Below are positions 11,102 through 23,175 of a stretch of 36,242 nt of DNA, one piece after another; the first letter of the stretch is position 1, and the number at the start of each line of letters is the position of its first letter. Source of the stretch: an uncultured Verrucomicrobiales bacterium (lineage in GTDB: Bacteria > Verrucomicrobiota > Verrucomicrobiia > Limisphaerales > Palsa-1400); the NCBI GenBank assembly GCA_903898185.1, contig CAIUEN010000446.1, positions 1 through 36,242 of the forward strand. The letters are read 5' to 3'. The notes beneath the pieces were generated by a model. It had not been told where the DNA came from. It made no database searches and saw only the letters and a program-made list of their open reading frames with translations. The translations under genes were made by a program, and so were the position numbers.

Positions 11102-11176
11102 ATTTTAGGCGAGAGTTGCGCCCGTTGGCCCTCAGCGGCCTTGGTGCGCGGTTCTCCAGACTTATGCCATTCTCCG
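11102..11176 (-). pseudogene. integrase gene remnant (first copy)
   Basis: About 62 bases (11102-11163) match the integrase gene at 22516-22577 with roughly nine identities in ten, in the same orientation. They are followed by CATTCTCCG (11168-11176), which also occurs beside the attachment site at 12801-12809. This is a leftover of a related element, not a gene. Confidence 0.7.
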
Positions 11177-11177
11177 A

Positions 11178-11356
11178 TTACTGTTCAGCAATCCAAGATG
11201 GCAAAGAGGCTGCCCACAGCCGCGCGTGTTTGGCTGTTGAAGCTCCTGAAAGACGGGCGGCGGTATCACCACTTGGCGGAAAAGGCTGGGCAGGATGCTT
11301 TCGGCATCGCACAAAATGAGATAGTGCAACGGCGATGTGTCAGAGACGCGCGACAC
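11178..11356 (-). pseudogene. broken PIN-domain toxin (DUF3368-like)
   Basis: The N-terminal half of a PIN ribonuclease toxin: VSDTSPLHYLIL carries the first catalytic Asp, and PSLFRQVVIPPPVFQELQ is typical of DUF3368 toxins. After QQPNT the frame is lost by what looks like a one-base deletion. The shifted frame continues as ARLWAASLPSW, as expected for the family, and then stops. The remaining half with the other acidic residues is absent, and the integrase remnant begins at that point. The GTG start follows the antitoxin stop directly. Toxin activity is very unlikely. Confidence 0.75.
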
Positions 11357-11974: not shown

Positions 11975-12199
11975 ATGACTGTGCTATTCAGATGTCGGGT
12001 CGAAAAGCCGTTGCTCGAGAAAGCCAACGCAGTGACCCATTCACTTGGGACTTCCACTTCGGAAATGGTTCGCGTGTTCCTGACTCAGATCGCCAAGACT
12101 GGAAAAGTTCCCGTGTCCTTGGATGCCGCTGAACCATTGGTGGGCAAGAAACGTCGGAATGATATCTTGAAAGGATTGGATGAAACCGAGACCTGGTGA
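11975..12199 (+). CDS. RelB/DinJ-like antitoxin
   Basis: Antitoxin of 74 residues. The N-terminal part (VLFRCRVEKPLLEKANAVTHSLG, then TSTSEMVRVFLTQIAKTG) fits the ribbon-helix-helix fold of RelB/DinJ proteins, which bind operator DNA as dimers. The C-terminal part would wrap the toxin. It overlaps the toxin gene by 20 bases, as is common in such pairs. The protein pair probably represses its own promoter just upstream. RelB-like antitoxin with a MazF-like toxin is a mixed but known combination. Confidence 0.82.
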   Translation: MTVLFRCRVEKPLLEKANAVTHSLGTSTSEMVRVFLTQIAKTGKVPVSLDAAEPLVGKKRRNDILKGLDETETW

Positions 12200-12497
12200 G
12201 GTGTTTATGCTGGATTTGGGCTATGAAGGGAAGGTCCGTCCGGTGGTAATTGTTTCCAGGGAGGATGATTCCGCGCCTCGGGCGCTGGCCGTTTTCGTTC
12301 CGTTGACGACGGAATTCAGGTCAAGCCGCTATGAAGTGAAGCTTCCGCGTGTTCCGTGGCTGGCGCATCAGAGTTTTGCCAACGCGCAGGCGATGGGCGC
12401 GGCGGAATATCACGAATTGACAGATCGTCGGGGACGGTTGGAACCGGCAGTGATGGCGGAAATCAAAGCGGCTATACGATGGGCGTTGGACCTTTAA
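12180..12497 (+). CDS. MazF/PemK family toxin
   Basis: Endoribonuclease toxin of the MazF/PemK/CcdB fold, expected to cut mRNA at short sequences. Family features are visible in order: PRPGEVFMLDLGYEGKVRPVVIV (first strands with the catalytic Arg in KVRPVVIV), VFVPLTTEF with the Thr-containing strand, and SFANAQAMGAAEYHEL in place of the usual N/D-Q loop. The length of 105 residues is typical. No break is seen, unlike the PIN toxin nearby. Translation is probably coupled to the antitoxin through the 20-base overlap. Confidence 0.87.
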   Translation: MKPRPGEVFMLDLGYEGKVRPVVIVSREDDSAPRALAVFVPLTTEFRSSRYEVKLPRVPWLAHQSFANAQAMGAAEYHELTDRRGRLEPAVMAEIKAAIRWALDL

Positions 12498-12665
12498 TCG
12501 GGAGTGGAACAATCTTTCGCGGGCTTTCGACAGGCTATTTCGTATCACCGTTCGCGAGTGTCAGCGGCGGCCATAGGGATGACGATGGCGGCTGGTTTGG
12601 GCGACAAGGCAAGCCATGCTCCCGCGTTTGTCGTCAAGCCTTTGTGACGGGCGTCAATCTTGGCT

Positions 12666-12790
12666 AAATCGCAAACCGCATGGCCGGGGAATGTGCCAGA
12701 GAACCGACGCAGCATGATGGCGCGGTTGTATGCGTATTTGGGCGAGAGTTGCGTCCGTTGGCCCTCGACGGCCTTGGTGCATGGTTCTTC
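12666..12790 (-). pseudogene. integrase gene remnant (second copy)
   Basis: About 125 bases match the integrase gene at 22448-22572 closely and in the same orientation. An attachment-site copy follows directly at 12798-12847, whereas in the intact element roughly 500 bases of gene lie between. It is therefore a deleted remnant of a second, related element at the same tRNA locus. The bases between the MazF stop and this remnant (12498-12665) show nothing I recognise. Confidence 0.8.
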
Positions 12791-12809
12791 GGACGTATTT
12801 CATTCTCCG

Positions 12810-12847
12810 AGGGAGAATTGGTGCGCTTAGCAGGACTTGAACCTGCA
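12810..12847. repeat. distal attachment site of the integrative element
   Basis: A perfect 38-bp direct repeat of 23082-23119. It contains the CCA, the acceptor 3' strand and the T-arm of tRNA-Leu (12819-12847) but no other tRNA part. The match extends left to 12798 with two mismatches. It includes an ATTCTC-N5-GAGAAT hairpin just beyond the tRNA end; the loops differ between the two copies. Confidence 0.92.
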
Positions 12848-13373: not shown

Positions 13374-13775
13374 ATGCCGCTATTCACCCGCGAAAATGCC
13401 CGCCAATACCAAGCCCGCGCAGTGGTCGCAAGAAAGTCGCGAGCCACGTATGCGGAGCCCGAATCGCCACCATCGCCGCAAGTTGCGGGTACTGACTCCT
13501 ATTCAGAAGCACGACTCTCCCGCGTGAGGCGGCAGCTTGATCGACTCGACACAATGGTTGAAAGGGAAACAGACCCGATGAAGCTCGACAAGTTGGCCAG
13601 TGCCCAAGCTCGTCTGGCTGAACAGGAGCGCCTGCTGGCTGGCCGCCCTCTGCCGGGTTCACGCCGTCCAGAGCGCGAGCGTCCAAAACGGCAATGGGCC
13701 AGCATGGTGGATTTCGATCCCCAACCACTCATGCCTATTGCCGAGGCTCCGAACCCCGCTCCTGTCGAATCATGA
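13374..13775 (+). CDS. small hypothetical protein of the element
   Basis: Unrecognised protein of 133 residues. The N-terminus is basic (MPLFTRENARQYQARAVVARK), the middle is helical and charged (RVRRQLDRLDTMVERE, then DPMKLDKLASAQARLAEQERLL), and the end is Pro-rich. The helical part could be a small DNA-binding or packaging-type subunit, as phage elements often carry at this place. That is a guess from composition and position. It is transcribed towards the convergent cargo operon and no Shine-Dalgarno site is evident. Confidence 0.5.
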   Translation: MPLFTRENARQYQARAVVARKSRATYAEPESPPSPQVAGTDSYSEARLSRVRRQLDRLDTMVERETDPMKLDKLASAQARLAEQERLLAGRPLPGSRRPERERPKRQWASMVDFDPQPLMPIAEAPNPAPVES

Positions 13776-13882: not shown

Positions 13883-14404
13883 TCATTTCAGAGGTTTGCG
13901 GCTGCCGTCTTTTGAACCAGCCTCATCTCTTGCTTTCGCGGCAACTGCCACCCAAGCCAACACTGCAATCCCAAGCATTATTCCATTTTCCAAAAATTCT
14001 TTTCGCTTGTATTGGTCCTCGGAAACTTCCGCGTAGAATTCAGGAACGTCGGGGTGGAGTCCTTCCGGATCGCCTCCGCCGCCATAGCGCACGATTCCAC
14101 TCCCTTTGTGATTTGCTGTATCTACAAGATTCACTACTGAAAGGCCGATGATGAAGCCGAGTCCAGCACCCCAAAGCATCCAACGGTTGAATATCCAGAG
14201 CGAGTTGGTGCGACCGAGTAGCACGAACAGAACTATGCCAAGCGCAAAAAGGATGATGGCGAGAACCACATGGTTATCACCACTGGGCGTCTGAGAACTG
14301 AGCAACACGCAACCATTGAGGAGCATCCGCAGAAGGAAAACCACACCAACCCAAAAGCAAATGCCAAGAATGAATAAACCGATTGATTTGAGCGTGTCTT
14401 TCAT
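13883..14404 (-). CDS. small membrane protein, last gene of the cargo operon
   Basis: Unknown inner-membrane protein of 173 residues. Three hydrophobic segments lie in the first half (SIGLFILGICFWVGVVFLL, VVLAIILFALGIVLFVLL and WMLWGAGLGFIIGLSVV). A Gly-rich hydrophilic loop with GGGGDPEGLHPDVPEFYAEV follows, then a fourth segment (ENGIMLGIAVLAWVAVAA) and a basic tail. The start codon overlaps the stop of the preceding gene by four bases (ATGA). The role is unknown; the tight coupling suggests it works with the J-domain and Sel1 proteins. Confidence 0.75.
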   Translation of the reverse strand: MKDTLKSIGLFILGICFWVGVVFLLRMLLNGCVLLSSQTPSGDNHVVLAIILFALGIVLFVLLGRTNSLWIFNRWMLWGAGLGFIIGLSVVNLVDTANHKGSGIVRYGGGGDPEGLHPDVPEFYAEVSEDQYKRKEFLENGIMLGIAVLAWVAVAAKARDEAGSKDGSRKPLK

Positions 14405-14721
14405 GGTGGTGGCTTGTGCCAGTCAACGATGGCGATTGAAACCAGAAGCAGCACGGCGGCGGCCACATCAACAAGAGCCCAAGTTTCGCGTTTAAAATGA
14501 AGCGGGACGATGGGGTTTAGAATGAGGGCCAGTATTGCAAAAATCCACAGCCAGCCGTTTCTTTTGGTCAGGGAGGCTTGAAAGGCGGTGTAGGCACAGA
14601 CACCGCAGGCTATCCAGCGCAGAAGCGTATAGAAGTCGTAACCATGTCGGCCAAGAGCGGCGAAGAGCATCCCGGCAGCAAGCAACTTGGCAAGGATACA
14701 GCAGAAATTGGTGGGTTTCAT
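14401..14721 (-). CDS. small four-helix membrane protein (DUF6804-like)
   Basis: Membrane protein of 106 residues with four hydrophobic stretches. The segments YTLLRWIACGVCAYTAFQA, WLWIFAILALILNPIVPLHF and RETWALVDVAAAVLLLVS match my memory of DUF6804-type proteins, whose function is unknown. The hallmark NPIVPLHFKRETWALVD is well kept. It overlaps the J-domain gene by four bases upstream and the next membrane gene by four bases downstream, so it is translated as part of one polycistronic message. Confidence 0.78.
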   Translation of the reverse strand: MKPTNFCCILAKLLAAGMLFAALGRHGYDFYTLLRWIACGVCAYTAFQASLTKRNGWLWIFAILALILNPIVPLHFKRETWALVDVAAAVLLLVSIAIVDWHKPPP

Positions 14722-16034
14722 AGTGGCCCTTCACTCCGCTCCCCATTCTGCACCCATTGCACCAACCTAGCAATCGGGTTGCTTGGCCAACGTTCCATCA
14801 CCACGGCAATCAACCAACCCAAGCTGAAGCCTAGAACCACCTGCGACAAGAGCATGATCACAAACGCAATGGCATAGCCTGCCACCGAGGCCAACCACGA
14901 GCCACCGAACGCAGTGGCCAGCCTAAGTCCAATTGAACAAGAAAAGACAAGCAGGCAGCCGACCACAAACAATCCAAGCAACGAAACTACTGCGTAGTAA
15001 CCCAGCAGCAGTGCCAGCCGACAGAATGCACTTAAGCAGGGCCAACCCTCCAGTTCGCCGTATCGCCTCAGCAGCGCCTTCTCCAATCTAGGCTCAAGAT
15101 TGGCCTGAGGTTTGGCTACAATTCCTGTTGGCATACTTGGTGTCTTATTTCTCAGAATTTTGATTTCGTTCGCAAGTTGTTCAGCCTGCTTTTCCAATTC
15201 CGCAATTTCAGTTTCAACCTGTTTGATTCGTTCCACCGCAAGTTCTTCGAGCGTGCCGGGCTTCTGTTCGCTCAATTGGCAAAGCTCGTAATCGGGACTT
15301 TCGCGCAACCGCCTCAACGAATCTGCCACAACGCCAATTTCTTCTGTGAGTGTTTCATGCAGTTTACGCAATTGGGCCAGTTCTGCGGCGTCGCCAAAAT
15401 CCAGAGTTGCCCAGCCTTGACGCATCAGGAAGCCTTGCGGGTCTTCTGCGATTTCGCGCAGGAGTTCGATGTCGCCATTGTCCTTTGCCTGGTTGATTGC
15501 GCTGGTCAGCTTGTGATAGGTCTCTAATTCTTCCGGCTGGTTGGCGTAACGGTCGGGGTGATACAACTTGACCAGCTTCTTCCAAAGCTGCGTTAGTTCG
15601 GCTTCTTCGTTAGCGGTCAATGGCTTCCTTGTGTCTGCCGCCGCCGCCAGTTCTTCGTAATCCCTGTCTGTTTGCGCTTTGGCTTGCTTGTAATTTTGAT
15701 CCTCTTGTTTTGCGCCTTTTGAATCACCACGTTTAAGGGAGTTCAAAAACTTGCGACGGTATTCCACTTTTAGGCGCAGTCGGTCGCGCTTGTGATAGTG
15801 CTCCCGCAAAAGCAGGAACAACACAGCCTGCAAAGCGTCAACGCGGGATTTCTCTTTGGTGAAATCGGCTTCTAATTCCGCCAACCGCGCCCGTGCGCCA
15901 GCCACAAGTTGACGCAGTTGTTCCAGTTCCGGACTTGTGTAGATTGTTGGCAGCGTTGTTTTCATGTAGTCCAGGGCGATGAAAGGGTGATCGTGCGTTT
16001 CAATCCATTCGAACGCACGATTCAAGGTCGTCAT
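14718..16034 (-). CDS. membrane-anchored J-domain protein with coiled coils
   Basis: Probable co-chaperone-like protein of 438 residues that would recruit DnaK/Hsp70 to the membrane. The N-terminal half is helical and charged. A J domain follows (ANEEAELTQLWKKLVKLYHPD) with the essential HPD at residues 159-161. After it come a second coiled coil (VERIKQVETEIAELEKQAEQ) and two long hydrophobic segments near residues 355-430. The J domain sits mid-protein and there is no Gly/Phe or zinc region, unlike DnaJ. I start at the ATG at 16034, which overlaps the Sel1 gene by 35 bases; 28 more codons are open upstream. Its stop overlaps the next start in ATGA. The partner or client is unknown. Confidence 0.8.
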   Translation of the reverse strand: MTTLNRAFEWIETHDHPFIALDYMKTTLPTIYTSPELEQLRQLVAGARARLAELEADFTKEKSRVDALQAVLFLLLREHYHKRDRLRLKVEYRRKFLNSLKRGDSKGAKQEDQNYKQAKAQTDRDYEELAAAADTRKPLTANEEAELTQLWKKLVKLYHPDRYANQPEELETYHKLTSAINQAKDNGDIELLREIAEDPQGFLMRQGWATLDFGDAAELAQLRKLHETLTEEIGVVADSLRRLRESPDYELCQLSEQKPGTLEELAVERIKQVETEIAELEKQAEQLANEIKILRNKTPSMPTGIVAKPQANLEPRLEKALLRRYGELEGWPCLSAFCRLALLLGYYAVVSLLGLFVVGCLLVFSCSIGLRLATAFGGSWLASVAGYAIAFVIMLLSQVVLGFSLGWLIAVVMERWPSNPIARLVQWVQNGERSEGPL

Positions 16035-17487
16035 AGCAGAATCTGGTTTCCCCGATGACAAGCCTGAATCTGCGCTCATCAATGGTTTCAAGCAGCAGAA
16101 CCGATTCGTCCAGCTCAAGTTTGCCGGTCATCCGTATCTCGTTCTTGAGCCAGACCTCAACCTCATATCCGATGGGCAAACCAAGTTTTCGCGCCAAGCG
16201 GTGGCTGGCGCGCTCGCGTTCCGTGGGCTTGGGGGTGAGTGATTCTATCGGCTCGGTTTTCCGTGACAAGATTCCCTCTTCCATTACTTCGAGAAATGCT
16301 TCACAAGCTTCTTCTGAGGCTTTTTCCTCATTGATGTATTTAAGTTTCAGTGGCAGCGCCCACTCTGGAAATGAGTCGAGTGAAGCGAGCTTTGCGACCG
16401 CGTCTTTGTCCTCTTGGTCAATGTCGTGCCAGTCGCGCGTCAGACAGGTCAGGAGATAATTGAGCTTCGGTAGCATTTTTTCGGCGGACTCTTGCAACTG
16501 TGGATCATCTGAAGCTTCCATCACCTCTCCGTAGTGGTTGCTAAGCGACTGGATGGCGTGGAGGATTGATTTCTTGGGAGATGGCAATTTACTGCAATCG
16601 CCGAGGGGCGGGCTCTTGGCTGCCAAGAAGTCGATGAAAGCAAAGACGATTTCCTGTTGGTTCTTGAGCTCGAGGCACCCGCTTAATCTCTGAAGATTGG
16701 AGGGCGCATTCGAGTCTCCTCCCTCTGCTGCTTTGCGATACCAATTGGCAGCTTCATGTAGATTCTGCGGAACGCCTTGGCCTGTTTCGTAGCAAACCCC
16801 GAGATCATTCTGAGCTCCAGCCAAACCTTGTTCAGCAGCTTTTCTATACCACTTGACGGCTTCGGTGAAGTTTTGCGGAACGCCTTGGCCCCTATCGTAA
16901 AAAACGCCAAGATTTTTTTGAGCAATGGCGTCCCCTTGTTCGGCGGCCTTACGAGTCCACTTGACCGCTTCCGCGTAGTCTTGGATTACGCCTTCACCGT
17001 CCATGTAACACAGCCCAAGGCTCCATTGTGCTACGGCGTCGCCTTGTTCAGCAGCTTTGCGATACCATTGAACTGCTATGTCGTGAACCTGTGTGTCTTG
17101 GTAGAATACTCCCAACTGCCGTTGTGCGATTACAAATCCCGATTCTGCTGACTTATGAAACCACTCCAAGGCTTTTTCCAAATCCTCTGAAACTCCGTGA
17201 CCGCCCAAGTAACTCTCGTAAACGAGAAGTTGCGCTTCGCCGTGCCCGGCAACTGCTGCGCGGTAGAAGTGTTCAAACGCGCGAATGTCTTCGGGCGTCA
17301 TCCCTTCGCGGCGTTGAATTCGTTTTCCCTCTAGAACAAGCGCGTCGAGATCAACCCTATTAACCGCCGCTAGGACGTCCGCCACCATGCCCGCCAAAAT
17401 GCGTTTTGCACTGGGCTTAGCCTTTTCAACGGCGCTTGGCAGTCGCCGAACGAGCGGAAGATCGTTGCGCGTTTCGTCGTTGTTCAT
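16000..17487 (-). CDS. Sel1-repeat protein, first gene of the cargo operon
   Basis: Solenoid protein of about 495 residues, probably a protein-binding scaffold. At least five Sel1-like repeats of 36 residues span about residues 75-265, with the typical AVKWYRKAAEQG and A-x-x-x-LGVFY-x-x-GQGVPQ pattern. The middle is helical without a known domain. The C-terminal 65 residues (YEVEVWLKNEIRMTGKLEL, then RFRLVIGETRFCYDDLESC) look like a small Sm/SH3-like beta barrel. The ATG at 17487 is preferred over one 33 bases upstream. No signal peptide is seen, so it is probably cytoplasmic. It opens the four-gene operon and is divergent from the XRE gene. Confidence 0.82.
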   Translation of the reverse strand: MNNDETRNDLPLVRRLPSAVEKAKPSAKRILAGMVADVLAAVNRVDLDALVLEGKRIQRREGMTPEDIRAFEHFYRAAVAGHGEAQLLVYESYLGGHGVSEDLEKALEWFHKSAESGFVIAQRQLGVFYQDTQVHDIAVQWYRKAAEQGDAVAQWSLGLCYMDGEGVIQDYAEAVKWTRKAAEQGDAIAQKNLGVFYDRGQGVPQNFTEAVKWYRKAAEQGLAGAQNDLGVCYETGQGVPQNLHEAANWYRKAAEGGDSNAPSNLQRLSGCLELKNQQEIVFAFIDFLAAKSPPLGDCSKLPSPKKSILHAIQSLSNHYGEVMEASDDPQLQESAEKMLPKLNYLLTCLTRDWHDIDQEDKDAVAKLASLDSFPEWALPLKLKYINEEKASEEACEAFLEVMEEGILSRKTEPIESLTPKPTERERASHRLARKLGLPIGYEVEVWLKNEIRMTGKLELDESVLLLETIDERRFRLVIGETRFCYDDLESCVRMD

Positions 17488-17655
17488 CGCAGTTGGAGGG
17501 CGGTAAATCCCCGATAGCATTGGCAGGTTTGTTCAATACACATGCCGACGGTCGCGTTCCTACGCGAAAAGACACCCCAAGCATTGTTCATAAGACGCGC
17601 ATGTGGGTTTCAGTTTTACGGTGCATTACCCCGTTCCGTCAAGCTTTTATAAACG

Positions 17656-17895
17656 GTGCAATGCGCCGTGAATTCAAAAGACAAGATTACGGCTCAATTG
17701 AAACGGTTCGGCGGGAATGTTCGACGGGAACGAATGGCGTCGGGGAAAACCCAAGAATGGCTGGCTGAAAAGTCTGATTTGAACGTCCGCACGTTGCAGA
17801 GCATCGAGGCGGGCGAACTCAACATTTTGATCACCACGGCAGCCCGGATTCAAAAGGCGCTGGGATGCGATTGGGACAAGTTGATGGAGACTTGA
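17656..17895 (+). CDS. XRE-family HTH regulator
   Basis: DNA-binding protein of 79 residues with a Cro/C1-type helix-turn-helix (RRERMASGKTQEWLAEKSDL, then VRTLQSIEAGELNI). The start is GTG at 17656, or GTG at 17668; no ATG fits. The first helix is immediately preceded by a basic stretch. It is divergent from the Sel1 gene with a 168-base shared space, so it probably represses the cargo operon and itself. The operator was not identified. It could instead control element excision. Confidence 0.8.
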   Translation: MQCAVNSKDKITAQLKRFGGNVRRERMASGKTQEWLAEKSDLNVRTLQSIEAGELNILITTAARIQKALGCDWDKLMET

Positions 17896-17941: not shown

Positions 17942-18280
17942 TCATGGCTTGGCGGCGGTGAGTCTTTCCAGGGCGCGGCGGCAAAGGGGATGTTGAATTG
18001 AGCGTAGCCCGATGCTCAAGGTTTGGGCGGTGGACTTGTCCAACGGCTCGAATTCACCCGCCAGGACTTGTTTGGAGACGTGCAGCCAAGGGGCGCAGTC
18101 GTCTGGCAGACCGAGGGCGCGGGATTCCAGCAGCATGAGCAATTCGGTTTTGTGCTGCCGCAACGAGTCCGCCAATTCAGCGGGCAGCCGACTGCCAGGA
18201 ATAACGGCTAAGCGGTCGCCTCGCGGCTCAAGTCGCAAACCAAGAGCGGCGGCACGGCGGAACAAATCAGGTGCGGTCAC
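17942..18280 (-). CDS. TubC N-terminal docking domain-like protein
   Basis: Small protein of 112 residues. The N-terminal half (LFRRAAALGLRLEPRGDRLAV, then LPAELADSLRQHKTELLMLL) matches the TubC_N docking fold, which is also common in mobile elements beside primase genes, where its role is unclear. The C-terminal half is helical and unrecognised. The ATG overlaps the primase stop by four bases, so it is coupled to the replication gene. A DNA or protein docking role in replication is an inference. Confidence 0.7.
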   Translation of the reverse strand: MTAPDLFRRAAALGLRLEPRGDRLAVIPGSRLPAELADSLRQHKTELLMLLESRALGLPDDCAPWLHVSKQVLAGEFEPLDKSTAQTLSIGLRSIQHPLCRRALERLTAAKP

Positions 18281-20613
18281 AGCAGCACCTCGTCTGGTTG
18301 GGGGTTTTCAATCGTAACCGCGTAACTTGCCCCGTCTTTATTGCCTTTTTTGCCTGTTTCAATCCGTAACCCGGTTATTGCTGGTGACGGTTCAGAAAGT
18401 GAAAAATCGCCAATATCTTCGGGGATGGTTACGGGGTTACGGTCTGAAAGGGGGGTGTTTGGCAGATAACGGGCGAAGGCATCCGCAAAGTCCGCCAGGT
18501 GATAGCCTTTGGCGGTGTCGCCGGAACTCAGTTTGAGTGTGCGTGGAGAGACTTTAAACGGTTTAAGCAACCGCGCCAGGGTGTTTGCGGTGATCGGCTT
18601 CCGATCTCGGCCAAATTCGGCCCAGAGCTGCCCTTCCATCGAGAGCAACAGTTTAACCAGCATTCCAGAGGAGATTTTGGTCGCGGATTGGCCGTAGAAA
18701 ATGGCCCTAATATCCGCCAGGAGCGTTGCGCCAATGCCTTGTGCGTCCGTGTCATCGGTCGCCGTCAAGGCGGCAAAGGCAGCCGCCGCCCGGCGCGGCC
18801 AATCGCCGCCCGCAACTTCGGCAATAGCAAAGAGAGGTCGCCAGTTGTCGGCTAGGCGGTTGAATGCGCCGTCCGGCAATGTCGGGTCGGAAGACTCAAA
18901 CGCGGGGCGTTCATCAGCAATCCACCGCGCCAACTTCCGGCACAATTGGGTTTCTGATTCAGTGTGCCGTGAATCGAACCGCGCGGGTAATTCGCCCGGT
19001 TTGGCGCGAGTCAACCGGATAACGATGCTCCGGTCGTGCAACGTTACAGGCAAGTGGCCAATGCCACAAAGAACGGCTGGGGCGAAAACATTGAACGCTC
19101 TTACTTCGTTGGAATCTCCTTCGCAGCGCAATGCCTGACCGCCACGCCGATGCCCCGCGTTCAACATTCCCCGCAGTTCCTCATTGTCACCTAACCAACT
19201 GTCACACTCGTCGGCGAGCACCGTTGGCTTACGCGATTGAATTACGCGGAACAAAACAGCCACGCTCAAATTCTCCGTCGCCAACGGGCGCGGCACAAAT
19301 AGCATAACTAGGTCGCGGGCTGTTGTTTTGCCGCAACCCCGTTCCGGTGAACAGATGTTGAGTCTCGGTGTTATGGGGAACGCCTCAAAGCAATGCGTGT
19401 GGGCGGCCCAAAGCGTCATGCCATCGGCAGCGCCCGGCGGCAGGGCCAGGAAGCGGCGAAAGGTGGCGGCAATCGCGTCCAGGACTTCCGCGCCATTAAC
19501 GGCTTGCGGCCACGGTTCAACGTCCGGTGATTTTACGGCGCGGCCTTGGAGCATCGAGCCAGCGCCACCCGCCGCGCCGCGCAATCGCTCGACTTCCTTG
19601 TCGAGAGTGCCAACACGAATTCTCAAAGCGTCGGCCTTTTGTTCGCGGCAGCGATCATACTCTCCGCCGGGGAGCGCGGCCAAACGGGCATATATTTCTT
19701 CGTCGGTTTCTGTTGGTGTCTGTGCGGCGGCGATCTGTTTATTCACGGTGTCAAGTCCTTCTCGTTGGTGCAGGTCATTGAAGTCGGTCGGCTTGTTGGT
19801 GGTTGAACGGAAACAAGGCGAAGCCAGTTTGGCCCGGATTGCCTTTGCGGCTTCTGTGGCTTTCGTCATACCCGGGTTGCTGTCCGTCCATTGGTCATTG
19901 TCGGCGGCAACAATAATTTCGCGATCTGGCCACTTGGAGCGGAGATCTTCCGCAACGCTTTTCAGGTTGGCGCAATTCATGGCGCAGACTGTTGCGAAGC
20001 CGGTGGCTTGGTAAATGGTCGCGCCGGTGGCGAAACCTTCGCAAATCACAAGCGGCCCGGTGGGATTACCGACCGGAGTGAAGTAGCATCCTTGGACGCG
20101 GCCGCCCGCAAGGAAACCTTTCGTGCCATCCGGGTCAATAAATTGAAGACTATGCAACACGCCGTCGAAGTCGCGTAACGGTAGGACAATCGTGCCGTGA
20201 TAATCGCGGGCTTCACCGAACTCTTGAACGCCTTTCGATGTTAGATAGGGGTGCGCTGTCAGCGGCTTAGACCGCTTCAGAATCCAACCGGCGGTTTCTT
20301 TCGCCTTTTCGCGGAGTTGCTTTTCGGCCCGCTCGCGCTCCGCTTCCGCCCGCTTCCAGGATTCCCCGATAGCCCGCTGTTGCGAATGCGTCAACTCACT
20401 CGGCTGTTTCTCACAAAACGTTTCTTTGATTTGCCGCTTCCAACAACCAAATGCGCCCGCCATTGGCGGACCGGTATGAAGGACATACCAAGAATTCCGG
20501 GCGCGGTCACCAGCGGCTTTGAAACGGCGCAGTATGCCATCCTCTAAGATCGGGCCGGAGTAATCCAACCCGGTGCGGAGCATCTCGGCGCGGAATAAGT
20601 CAATGGCGTTCAT
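18277..20613 (-). CDS. Toprim primase / DUF3631 helicase-like replication protein
   Basis: Large replication protein of 778 residues, probably a primase fused to an ATPase for element replication. Residues 40-60 (SWYVLHTGPPMAGAFGCWK) match the start of satellite and plasmid primases. A Toprim domain follows: VICEGFATGATIYQATG at 189-205 with catalytic Glu192, and IIVAADND at 233-240 with the metal-binding Asp residues. A P-loop ATPase comes next, with Walker A ERGCGKTT at 424-431 and a Walker B-like TVLADECDSW at 464-473. The C-terminal part resembles DUF3631. The ATG at 20613 shares a base with the previous stop (TAATG). I reject 54 open codons upstream. This gene type is characteristic of P4-like satellites. 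Confidence 0.88.
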   Translation of the reverse strand: MNAIDLFRAEMLRTGLDYSGPILEDGILRRFKAAGDRARNSWYVLHTGPPMAGAFGCWKRQIKETFCEKQPSELTHSQQRAIGESWKRAEAERERAEKQLREKAKETAGWILKRSKPLTAHPYLTSKGVQEFGEARDYHGTIVLPLRDFDGVLHSLQFIDPDGTKGFLAGGRVQGCYFTPVGNPTGPLVICEGFATGATIYQATGFATVCAMNCANLKSVAEDLRSKWPDREIIVAADNDQWTDSNPGMTKATEAAKAIRAKLASPCFRSTTNKPTDFNDLHQREGLDTVNKQIAAAQTPTETDEEIYARLAALPGGEYDRCREQKADALRIRVGTLDKEVERLRGAAGGAGSMLQGRAVKSPDVEPWPQAVNGAEVLDAIAATFRRFLALPPGAADGMTLWAAHTHCFEAFPITPRLNICSPERGCGKTTARDLVMLFVPRPLATENLSVAVLFRVIQSRKPTVLADECDSWLGDNEELRGMLNAGHRRGGQALRCEGDSNEVRAFNVFAPAVLCGIGHLPVTLHDRSIVIRLTRAKPGELPARFDSRHTESETQLCRKLARWIADERPAFESSDPTLPDGAFNRLADNWRPLFAIAEVAGGDWPRRAAAAFAALTATDDTDAQGIGATLLADIRAIFYGQSATKISSGMLVKLLLSMEGQLWAEFGRDRKPITANTLARLLKPFKVSPRTLKLSSGDTAKGYHLADFADAFARYLPNTPLSDRNPVTIPEDIGDFSLSEPSPAITGLRIETGKKGNKDGASYAVTIENPQPDEVLL

Positions 20614-20876
20614 TATTCGCCACCCCGCTGGCGGCGTAGCAGCCACGCCTCGACGCTGGCGGGGTGAAAAAAAAGGCGCCTCCCAAGAACGATATGCGGA
20701 AGTCCGCGCTTGCGTAGATCGTGGATTGTCCGGCGGCAAACCGGGACATGCCGGATGAATTCCGGCACATCCCATAAGTCACCGAGAGATGGCGTCTTGA
20801 TGGTCTCAACCTGTACTGCCAGCTTTCCTGTTCCCGTGGCAACTTCGGGCGTTTGTGTTATTTTGCTCTTAGGCAT
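20613..20876 (-). CDS. AlpA/excisionase-like HTH protein
   Basis: DNA-binding protein of 87 residues with a winged-helix HTH_17 pattern: LWDVPEFIRHVPVCRRTIHDL, then GLPHIVLGRRLFFHPASVEAW. Such proteins act as excisionases or as AlpA-type activators of the integrase. The N-terminal 30 residues are a loose tail. The ATG at 20876 is preferred; the longer frame to 20969 overlaps the upstream gene. The stop shares TAATG with the primase start. It lies between the integrase side and the primase, the usual place for AlpA. Confidence 0.8.
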   Translation of the reverse strand: MPKSKITQTPEVATGTGKLAVQVETIKTPSLGDLWDVPEFIRHVPVCRRTIHDLRKRGLPHIVLGRRLFFHPASVEAWLLRRQRGGE

Positions 20877-20955: not shown

Positions 20956-21693
20956 TCAAAGTGGCACAAGCGAAGACGGGAACCCTGTCAGGCCCCAATA
21001 CAAAGGCCGGGGGGCGTGATAGAGTCTCAAAGAGCGGTGAGCGTTTGAAATTACCTGGCCTTGATACGGCTCTCCAGAACGTGGATACAGATCGTTAAGG
21101 AACGCAGCTACACCCTCGTTAGTGAATGCCCACAGGCAGGCGGGAATCCAATAAAGGAGCAATTGAGGTTTGAGTCGCCGGTCGCCCTTGTTCTTGTTGG
21201 GCTTGCGTTGTTTTTGTTTGGCGAGCTCTGTGTTATAGGCAACGTCTCCAACTTTAGATGCGACGAAAATATCATCTGCAAAAAGATCAAAAGTCGAGGC
21301 GTCGCTTGCCTCCGGGCCGTTCATCGCCAATTGAAAAACAGCGTGCGATTGGAAAGCTTCTTGTCGGAATAGTTCTTGAATCCATTTGCTTTCCCCGTCT
21401 TTGTCGACTGGCAATTCAAATCCTGCCGCTCGAATTTTTGCAACAATGTCGGTGGGCGAAGCGTTACCCCAGTTGAATTGAAACTCCTTCCACTGCTGGC
21501 GGGATTGGTCGAACGTTTCAGCATCAACCCAAGCCCAATAAGCCGAATGCCAACTGTCGCACGCAAGGTGGTATCCTGCCCAAGATTGGCTTTGGAAAAA
21601 TATCTCTGCCAATCCATTGGCGGCCACCACGCGTTGAATGAGGCGACGGCTCAGGAAATGCCTTGCTGTTTCTGTTGGCGGTTCGGTCGGCAT
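20956..21693 (-). CDS. unknown protein between integrase and AlpA-like gene
   Basis: Unrecognised soluble protein of 245 residues. It has a Trp- and Phe-rich region (FFQSQSWAGYHLACDSWHSA, then WKEFQFNWG), a basic Lys/Asn patch (QKQRKPNKNKGDRRLKPQLL) and WIPACLWAFTNEGVAAFL. There is no signal peptide, membrane helix or known motif. The start lies six bases after the integrase stop, so the two are probably co-transcribed. Its place next to int suggests a role specific to the element, but no function can be assigned. Confidence 0.65.
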   Translation of the reverse strand: MPTEPPTETARHFLSRRLIQRVVAANGLAEIFFQSQSWAGYHLACDSWHSAYWAWVDAETFDQSRQQWKEFQFNWGNASPTDIVAKIRAAGFELPVDKDGESKWIQELFRQEAFQSHAVFQLAMNGPEASDASTFDLFADDIFVASKVGDVAYNTELAKQKQRKPNKNKGDRRLKPQLLLYWIPACLWAFTNEGVAAFLNDLYPRSGEPYQGQVISNAHRSLRLYHAPRPLYWGLTGFPSSLVPL

Positions 21694-21699
21694 GGCCTG

Positions 21700-23004
21700 C
21701 TATTGTGTTTTCACTGCTGGAAGTTGAATGACGTTAGCAGTTTGCGACGGCGCGACGGAGAACCACTTTTCGGCTTCTGATTTGGTTGACAGTCCTTTGT
21801 AATGCTGGTGAATCATGGCCGGACTGTTGCCCGCCTGCTGGGCAGTCAGGTTTTCGTTCCCGTGCGCGGCGTAATGGTAGGAGCAAAAGGCATGGCGGAG
21901 GCCGTTCGCTTTGCGCGTCACCTTGGCGTCTTCGCAGAGTTGGCGAAATTGTTGCTGCCAGATGACTTCGGCGCTCTTGGCGGTAATGGGGCAGACATTG
22001 CCAGCGGCGCAAGTGCGGAAGTCGGATAGCCAATTTGATAAGGTTGGGCAGATTTCCACAAGCCTGCGCTGGCGGGTCTTGGCTTTGCCCGCCGTAATTT
22101 CGATATGGCCAGGGACGCGCCAAACGTCCTCCCAAGTCAGGCGCAGGAGCTCGGCGGAGCGCAGACCGGCAAAGCCGCCAATGGCGATCATGGCCCGCAT
22201 GGGGCCTTCCGCCGTTTCGAGCAATGTTCTAAATTCGGCGCATGTGTAAAATTCCGTCTCGCAGTCGTTGGAATGTTCGGGGCGCATACCGTCGGCCTCG
22301 GCCATGCGATGCGTCACAGACAAGTAGTCCTTGCGGACACACCATTGAAGGAGTTGTTTGATTGTGGCGCGGTGATGATTACGGCTCTTGGCAGAGAAAT
22401 CGCAAACAGGCTTGGAAGTCAAAAATGTGTCGAGATGTTCCTTGCCCAGATCGCAAACCGCATGGCCGGGGAATGTGCCAGAGAACCGGCGCAGCATAAT
22501 GGCGCGGTTGTATGCGTATTTGGGCGAGAGTTGCGCCCGTTGGCCCTCGGCGGCCTTGGTGCGTGGTTCCTCTGACTTGATAAACTCTTCAACGGCTTCG
22601 GCTAGGTCTTTGCGCTTCACGGTGGCAACGGTGGATAGGTAGCCCGTCACCGCATCGGCTAGGGGCCGATTACTCAAACGCACCGCAGCTTCGCAGTATT
22701 CGTTCACGGTGGCCCGCAAGGAGATTGTGCGCCCTGTTTGTTGGTGAAACTGCCTGAGTCGTTCCAGCGCGGCTAGGGCGTCATTGGCTTGGGAATGGGA
22801 AAGGGCTGTTGCCTGCCCGCCTTTGGATAACTCTTTAACCAGAGCATCGGCCCTGAGTTTGGCTTGGCTGTAGCTACGGAATCGCTCCAACTTTCGCTTC
22901 CCTGCGACATTCCAAGCCAGCCGATAGGCTCCATACGCCTTTGATTTTGCGTAGATGGTGGCCAGCACTAGTCCACGATGCCTGATTCGCATGGGAAACC
23001 GCAT
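21700..23004 (-). CDS. tyrosine recombinase (integrase)
   Basis: Site-specific recombinase of 434 residues that integrates and excises the element at tRNA-Leu. The catalytic domain shows Arg282 in GLRSAELLRLTW, Lys near GKAKTRQRR, Arg370 in NGLRHAFCSYHY and nucleophile Tyr402 in IHQHYKGL. The usual first His of the HxxR box is Asn368, and the later box His is also Asn (AGNSP). These changes occur in some phage-type integrases. The N-terminal part holds a probable arm-binding region and a SAM-like core-binding domain (residues 130-235). It starts 87 bases beyond the tRNA 3' end and reads away from it, the classic arrangement. Confidence 0.92.
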   Translation of the reverse strand: MRFPMRIRHRGLVLATIYAKSKAYGAYRLAWNVAGKRKLERFRSYSQAKLRADALVKELSKGGQATALSHSQANDALAALERLRQFHQQTGRTISLRATVNEYCEAAVRLSNRPLADAVTGYLSTVATVKRKDLAEAVEEFIKSEEPRTKAAEGQRAQLSPKYAYNRAIMLRRFSGTFPGHAVCDLGKEHLDTFLTSKPVCDFSAKSRNHHRATIKQLLQWCVRKDYLSVTHRMAEADGMRPEHSNDCETEFYTCAEFRTLLETAEGPMRAMIAIGGFAGLRSAELLRLTWEDVWRVPGHIEITAGKAKTRQRRLVEICPTLSNWLSDFRTCAAGNVCPITAKSAEVIWQQQFRQLCEDAKVTRKANGLRHAFCSYHYAAHGNENLTAQQAGNSPAMIHQHYKGLSTKSEAEKWFSVAPSQTANVIQLPAVKTQ

Positions 23005-23056: not shown

Positions 23057-23081
23057 AAAGCACCATTTTTTTCATTCTCAT

Positions 23082-23119
23082 AGGGAGAATTGGTGCGCTT
23101 AGCAGGACTTGAACCTGCA
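23082..23119. repeat. tRNA-proximal attachment site
   Basis: This 38-bp sequence is identical to 12810-12847. It overlaps the 3' 29 bases of the intact tRNA-Leu gene, so integration leaves a complete tRNA at this end. Confidence 0.92.
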
Positions 23120-23175
23120 CGGGTTTCCCCACTACCACCTCAAAGTAGCGTGTCTGCCAATTCCACCATAAGCGC
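23091..23175 (-). tRNA. tRNA-Leu (anticodon GAG)
   Basis: A complete 85-base tRNA. The acceptor stem GCGCTTA pairs perfectly with TAAGCGC, and CCA is encoded. The D-arm carries TGGTGGAATTGGCAGACA. The anticodon stem CTACT/GGTAG encloses the loop TTGAGGT, giving anticodon GAG for CUC and CUU. It has the long variable arm of class II tRNAs and a T-arm of GCAGG-TTCAAGT-CCTGC. It is the integration target of the element. Confidence 0.96.

Follow-up and report, generated by a model that had tools for sequence, protein, structure and literature searches.

We analyzed a 36,242-nt stretch (the window) from an uncultured Verrucomicrobiales bacterium, whose genome is a 4.48-Mb assembly of 535 contigs. 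A four-gene operon in the window sits within a 10.3-kb integrative element that has att repeats, a tRNA-Leu, an integrase and a primase, and whose borders are 50-nt direct repeats identical at 48/50 positions (12798-12847 vs 23070-23119). The features of the element that lie outside the operon and its facing regulator are as follows, in window coordinates.

12798-12847, no strand: att repeat at the distal element end (50-nt direct repeat)
13374-13775, + strand: orf133, an element gene; in another genome, its 47% homologue adjoins DUF6804 and a DnaJ gene
17942-18280, - strand: orf112, TubC_N-like (sub-threshold Pfam match)
18277-20775, - strand: primase-type replication protein, Toprim_3 + DUF3631 (profile matches)
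20956-21693, - strand: orf245, without a family match
21700-23004, - strand: tyrosine integrase (phrog_1, 3e-21; Pfam Phage_integrase sub-threshold, 23.1 vs 27.1 bits)
23070-23119, no strand: att repeat that overlaps the tRNA-Leu 3' end (50-nt direct repeat)
23091-23175, - strand: tRNA-Leu(gag), the integration target (ARAGORN)

The integrase, tRNA site and flanking att repeats are present as in P4-like satellites, which an initial annotation of this DNA had named as the carrier of the operon. The integrative element with tRNA att sites stands, and P4-like is a tentative label for it; when P4 hallmark genes (size determination, polarity suppression) were sought in the element, the PHROG matches were to integrase, primase, repressors and unknowns only. 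A sister element (L118, 2-5157 of G081 C191) carries int, XRE, primase and an orf112 homologue in an order similar to the window's, and orf112 homologues lie 3' of the primase in sister elements at 48% (L118) and 61% (L119) identity. In L118, HsdM and HsdS (type I restriction) occupy the position of the window's operon, after primase-orf112, so this slot holds exchangeable cargo. To the left of the window's element are two integrase remnants (11104-11178 and 12659-12793, 80% and 91% identical to the element integrase), which are scars of earlier integrations at the same tRNA-Leu hotspot. A pair consisting of a RelB-like antitoxin and a PemK/MazF-like toxin (11975-12497) lies between them.

The operon, its regulator and their internal features are the following; all five genes are present at the positions given in the initial annotation.

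13883-14404, - strand: the other small membrane protein, of 173 aa, with four membrane segments (hydropathy)
14401-14721, - strand: DUF6804 membrane protein, 106 aa (PF20619, 3.9e-25)
14718-15965, - strand: J-domain protein, 415 aa, from the start homologous to relatives (alternative start 16034)
14817-14993, - strand: membrane hairpin of two helices, within the J protein's C-terminal extension (hydropathy)
15138-15947, - strand: conserved J module, coiled coil - J core - coiled coil (profile E 2e-150; predicted structure)
15552-15560, - strand: HPD motif, invariant in the alignment
16000-17520, - strand: tag-Sel1 protein, 506 aa, with N-terminal tag, Sel1 repeats and C-terminal domain (ORF and profiles)
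16003-16239, - strand: C-terminal domain of the Sel1 protein (aa 428-506), sharing 66% identity with a 97-aa protein from this genome
17359-17466, - strand: the tag (NDLPLVRRLPSAVEKAKPSAKRILAGMVADVLAAVN), profile match 1.9e-18
17618-17634, no strand: candidate operator copy 1 (ACGGTGCATTACCCCGT), 17-nt repeat
17653-17669, no strand: candidate operator copy 2 (ACGGTGCAATGCGCCGT), 17-nt repeat
17656-17895, + strand: small XRE/HTH_3 regulator (HTH_3, 6.5e-9; alternative start GTG 17668)

The initial annotation had given overlaps of 35, 4 and 4 bases between the operon genes and had taken them as coupling stronger than in the rest of the element. Both 4-bp overlaps are exact (J/DUF6804, 14718-14721; DUF6804/fourth gene, 14401-14404). 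The 35-bp overlap needs the J start at 16034, which relatives do not support: ATG 15965 (MKTT..IYTSPELEQL) is the position where short-J homologues begin in the alignment, and the extra 23 residues from the 16034 start matched only the window's own sequence and nothing in the relatives' loci. With the start at 15965, J follows the Sel1 stop after a 34-bp gap. Nor is the coupling exceptional within the element, which also has a 4-bp overlap between primase and orf112 and a spacing of 6 bp between orf245 and the integrase.

The small XRE gene does face the operon from the opposite strand, as had been described, and its HTH_3 match is above the Pfam cut-off (36.1 vs 23 bits). It also matches PADLOC Control_protein (1e-8) and, by sequence, resembles restriction-modification control (C) proteins. 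The two copies of the 17-nt repeat are 35 nt apart, placed before and across the annotated XRE start, and are putative operators; together with the C-protein-like XRE, they are consistent with delayed expression on entry. A PADLOC 2.0.0 search of the element gave generic HTH matches and weak noise only, with no listed system protein.

The J protein has the intact HPD and the two membrane segments noted initially: the motif is invariant in 22 aligned homologues, and hydropathy identified 2 segments. The HPD is flanked in the structure model by predicted helices 118-134 and 144-162, and the match to PF00226 (DnaJ) is sub-threshold (21.2 vs 27.8 bits, profile positions 13-51 of 63). J-domain cores generally act via Hsp70. 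Searching structures for resemblance to the J model (Foldseek, VIA-align) returned generic coiled coils and helical bundles, with no J-domain chain among the matches listed, and a search of the J profile against PDB sequences gave human DnaJA3 at E 0.2, a hint only.

The J module spans ~277 residues (24-300 of the J protein, counted from the 16034 start) and is 65-72% identical in relatives. For most relatives, it makes up the C-terminal half of a ~550-residue protein, the N-terminal half being an RNase_T/DEDDh exonuclease (E 1.7e-13), with the DEDDh catalytic motifs kept in most of these exonuclease-J (DEDD-J) copies. The window's J protein begins at the J module, without the exonuclease. J-only proteins, the window's among them, fall into a single clade (support 1.000). 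In the rooted tree, the forms around this clade bear the exonuclease, so its loss within the clade is likely. Given that a J-only clade exists, we consider the DEDDh exonuclease common in the family and not family-defining. Other J proteins in one alignment end near the window's membrane hairpin. The window's J groups with the J of G002 at a support of 0.854 to 0.884; the G002 protein is likewise extended at its C-terminus and followed by a DUF6804 gene. The J module had no relative in IMG/VR viral contigs and no match among plasmids and phage records.

The tag-Sel1 gene lies directly 5' of the J gene on the same strand. Near the start of its product is a tag of ~37 residues with the consensus xDFALVPRPPxAVEKAxPGAKRILSxMVxDxLAxAxx. 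The initial annotation had described this protein as a Sel1 scaffold, and the Sel1 repeats (PF08238) are well above the Pfam cut-off (173 vs 30.7 bits, 5 stretches); what did not hold is that Sel1 defines the system, as it is one of several interchangeable domains. The tag is joined to Sel1 in most loci and elsewhere to Response_reg (REC), LRR, HSP70 substrate-binding, PTS_EIIA_2 or HEAT+Sel1. Two further arrangements were observed: in L022 (8267-8803), the tag is joined to a substrate-binding region of Hsp70 that lacks the ATPase part, in a gene adjoining a J-domain protein, and in L104 (1651-3555 of G455 C364), a membrane protein has an internal tag followed by Sel1 repeats.

As the same first ~37 residues precede very different domains, the tag could be a conserved 5' segment that, much like an exon, lets recombination shuffle genes, with no docking function. 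We consider this very unlikely. Identity among tags by codon position is 0.67/0.76/0.48, which indicates constraint on the peptide and not on the DNA, and the tag is also found inside a membrane-Sel1 protein and co-occurs with J.

The remainder of the Sel1 protein points to exchange as well. It is 51% identical over 271 residues to the Sel1 protein of L046, which is paired with a DEDD-J protein, so tag and J partners are exchanged. Its C-terminal domain (the last 79 residues), initially called beta-barrel-like, has no Pfam match and is homologous to a free-standing host protein of ~97 aa. Since the copy in the same genome is 66% identical and those of other species do not exceed 47% identity, this end was probably acquired from a close host; it is possibly a captured host domain or a decoy. 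In L144 (3-3511 of G000 C129), the gene for the 97-aa host protein shares 4 bp with an overlapping SNF2 helicase gene. A constant association of the two was considered and rejected, as the arrangement was found in the window genome only.

Tag and J recur as an operon of 1-3 tag genes followed by J. Counting tag matches at E <= 1e-10 as strong, 17/21 are followed by a J gene of the same strand and contig. Of the other four, three are on contigs that end nearby and one is in a rearranged locus; two of these four J-less matches are at a contig end that apparently runs on to the J contig of G019. Operons with two tag genes also occur, and if the two contigs join, the one in G019 probably has three. 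The conserved core is the ~37-residue tag plus the ~277-residue J module. The initial annotation had included neither the N-terminal tag nor the exonuclease form of J, nor the exact att sites.

The J module was found in 32/320 genomes of the order and in 27 named loci, and in an evenly drawn sample of the phylum (n=387) it was present in the window genome only. Fragments and stops are frequent among the J copies. The named relatives are mostly Limisphaerales/Verrucomicrobia metagenome-assembled genomes; J modules in assemblies labelled Akkermansia, Klebsiella, Acidobacteria and Lentisphaerae (L059, L060, L053, L046, L051) probably come from mislabelled bins. Among tag-J loci, the integrase-primase setting was seen for the window only, with a TrwC relaxase adjoining one other locus and a weak integrase-like match near another. 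Literature searches found no paper on the tag-J system.

In nine loci, a co-directional gene overlaps the first tag gene or ends <=20 bp upstream of it.

L027: 4TM effector (PADLOC 3.8e-15) preceded by a CD-NTase (6.1e-61), upstream of tag-LRR and DEDD-J
L100: SIR2_2, directly upstream of the first tag gene
L057: DUF2971/PDC-S31 (4.3e-56), directly upstream of the first tag gene
L039: Trypsin_2 after Fic, directly upstream of the first tag gene
L034: GNAT, directly upstream of the first tag gene
L049: small membrane protein (by eye), directly upstream of the first tag gene
L041, L043, L045: genes without a known family, directly upstream of the first tag gene

Additional conflict-type genes lie close by in L044, with a ThsB_TIR gene (2e-16) ~530 bp upstream, and in L136, where a short J gene is followed by Mrr_cat. 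The window has no upstream effector gene. In a PADLOC control scan, genes downstream of J also matched, to generic models, so a PADLOC match alone is not decisive, and we rejected the use of such matches as an enrichment measure. Our reading of the upstream genes rests on specific, mostly full-length matches. In L027 (3380-8008 of G030 C77), the CBASS-type cyclase, 4TM effector, tag-LRR and DEDD-J genes follow each other with overlapping or short junctions, and tag-LRR plus DEDD-J are possibly an accessory to CBASS.

These neighbors bear on whether the family serves the physiology of its host. Because J-domain cores work through Hsp70 and the tag is fused to REC and PTS_EIIA_2 domains, the operons could encode a chaperone module for stress or nutrient signalling, where REC/EIIA tag proteins report cell state and J directs DnaK to them. 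We consider such a role unlikely, given the patchy distribution of J within the order and its presence in just one genome of the phylum sample, the frequent J fragments and stops, and the CBASS, SIR2 and PDC-S31 genes that adjoin tag genes. A defence role for the family is likely.

The third gene was described initially as DUF6804-like with four helices, and this was borne out: PF20619 matches at 88.3 bits (cut-off 27), and the AlphaFold model has four helices; hydropathy gave 3 membrane segments. A structure search with this model found generic or designed four-helix proteins only, none at E <= 0.001, and a literature search found no papers on DUF6804. DUF6804 occurs once in each of 7/196 genomes of the order, and 4/7 copies are within about 6 kb of a J operon. 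In L135, it follows a receiver-domain gene and is 68% identical to the window copy. In L132 (4988-6250 of G064 C67), it is fused to a REC-like domain, which matches tag proteins (8e-22 vs L041). The linkage to J, the REC fusion and neighbor, and the internal tag of the G455 membrane protein support the view that DUF6804-type membrane proteins are functionally connected with the tag-J system. A row in L133 (1015-3846 of G392 C342) consists of an orf133 homologue, DUF6804 and an overlapping DnaJ gene of another kind, which is full (DnaJ, 5.5e-20); it is perhaps an independent version of the same idea.

The fourth protein (173 aa) is a four-helix protein as initially described, with four membrane segments by hydropathy. 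It has no Pfam, PADLOC or NCBIfam match, and in 286 genomes its gene gave one weak partial match (42% over 95 aa), with no recognizable relatives of the operon in the neighborhood of that match. All four operon genes together were found in the window genome only, in the searches made. The initial annotation had proposed the four genes as one recurrent machine and had let this stand or fall with their co-occurrence; since the four proteins do not recur together, the exact four-gene machine fails. Its broader proposal of an undescribed system carried as mobile-element cargo fared better, backed by the Sel1-J operon in relatives, the independent DUF6804-J linkage and the known anti-phage effector genes upstream of several related operons. 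The family reading is thus stronger than the four-gene reading.

Addiction offers another explanation for the window's membrane proteins. A stabilization module similar to a toxin-antitoxin system, with membrane-protein toxins restrained by a Sel1-J complex, would keep the element in its host, and it would account for the translational coupling of the membrane proteins to J, the XRE that is like restriction-modification control proteins, with its two 17-nt repeats, and, in one relative, the Fic/Doc upstream. An addiction pair would, however, need neither as many as three tag adaptors nor fused exonucleases, and no partner appears to be antitoxin-sized, making this quite unlikely.

We consider it somewhat probable that the operon is cargo belonging to an undescribed modular conflict family, most likely anti-phage, with a J/Hsp70 hub. 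This reading builds on the observed gene order, tag, J module, domain swaps, conflict-type neighbors and DUF6804-J link; the function and the docking of tag to J are what we infer from them. In this proposal, the tag would be a docking peptide that joins interchangeable sensor or adaptor domains (Sel1 in the window) to the J protein, which would recruit host DnaK (Hsp70) and hold or remodel the complex. Infection would disturb the complex and release or arm a swappable effector. In most relatives, the effector would be the J-fused DEDDh exonuclease and/or the upstream gene; in the window, the J membrane hairpin, DUF6804 and the 173-aa protein may act at the membrane, e.g., by depolarizing or leaking, and the facing XRE probably times expression. 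The small membrane proteins might thereby bring about abortive infection, as initially suggested.

A broader version, which we put forward tentatively as possible, is a prokaryotic immune architecture of a new kind, in which the J/Hsp70 hub serves any tag-bearing partner, with sensors (Sel1, LRR, receiver, EIIA, Hsp70 substrate-binding) and effectors (exonuclease, CBASS pair, SIR2, protease, membrane proteins) being swapped as plug-ins, and with the host-derived end of the Sel1 protein serving as a decoy of a host target. If the conflict-family reading is true, Hsp70 co-chaperones would be tied to bacterial immunity under the rule that a 37-residue tag plugs a protein into J. New sensors and effectors could then be found by tracing the tag and reading the next gene, a role would be suggested for DUF6804, and the system would be a bacterial parallel to the adaptor-domain logic of eukaryotic immunity.

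Among known systems, the modular NTP-dependent conflict systems with effector-associated domains (Kaur et al. 2020, PMC7159879) share with tag-J operons a small adaptor domain found over different partners, swappable effectors and Hsp70/DnaJ components; some of their GAP1-N2 GTPase systems carry HSP70, GrpE and a DnaJ-domain FNIII protein (PMC7159879). The tag-J operons differ in that GTPase, vWA, MoxR and FNIII are not among the components seen, the hub is a J module, often DEDDh-fused, and the tag is a different, 37-residue one. No Pfam match to a GTPase or MoxR-vWA core was found within the window's element. CBASS is approached by the relative L027, with its CD-NTase and 4TM effector directly upstream of tag-LRR/DEDD-J, whereas other tag-J relatives hold other genes in that place, and the genes of the window's element had no Pfam/PADLOC match to a CD-NTase cyclase. 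With the cargo hotspots of phages and P4-like satellites, as outlined in PMC9122126, the window shares anti-phage-type cargo on an integrase-primase element and a sister element with type I restriction genes in the same slot; it differs from those outlined there in its host, an uncultured Limisphaerales-type bacterium. Finally, a T4-related phage encodes a J-domain protein (PMC3486835). There, too, a mobile genetic element encodes a J protein, one that acts on host DnaK as the window's J is proposed to do; it differs in belonging to a phage and in standing outside a tag operon.
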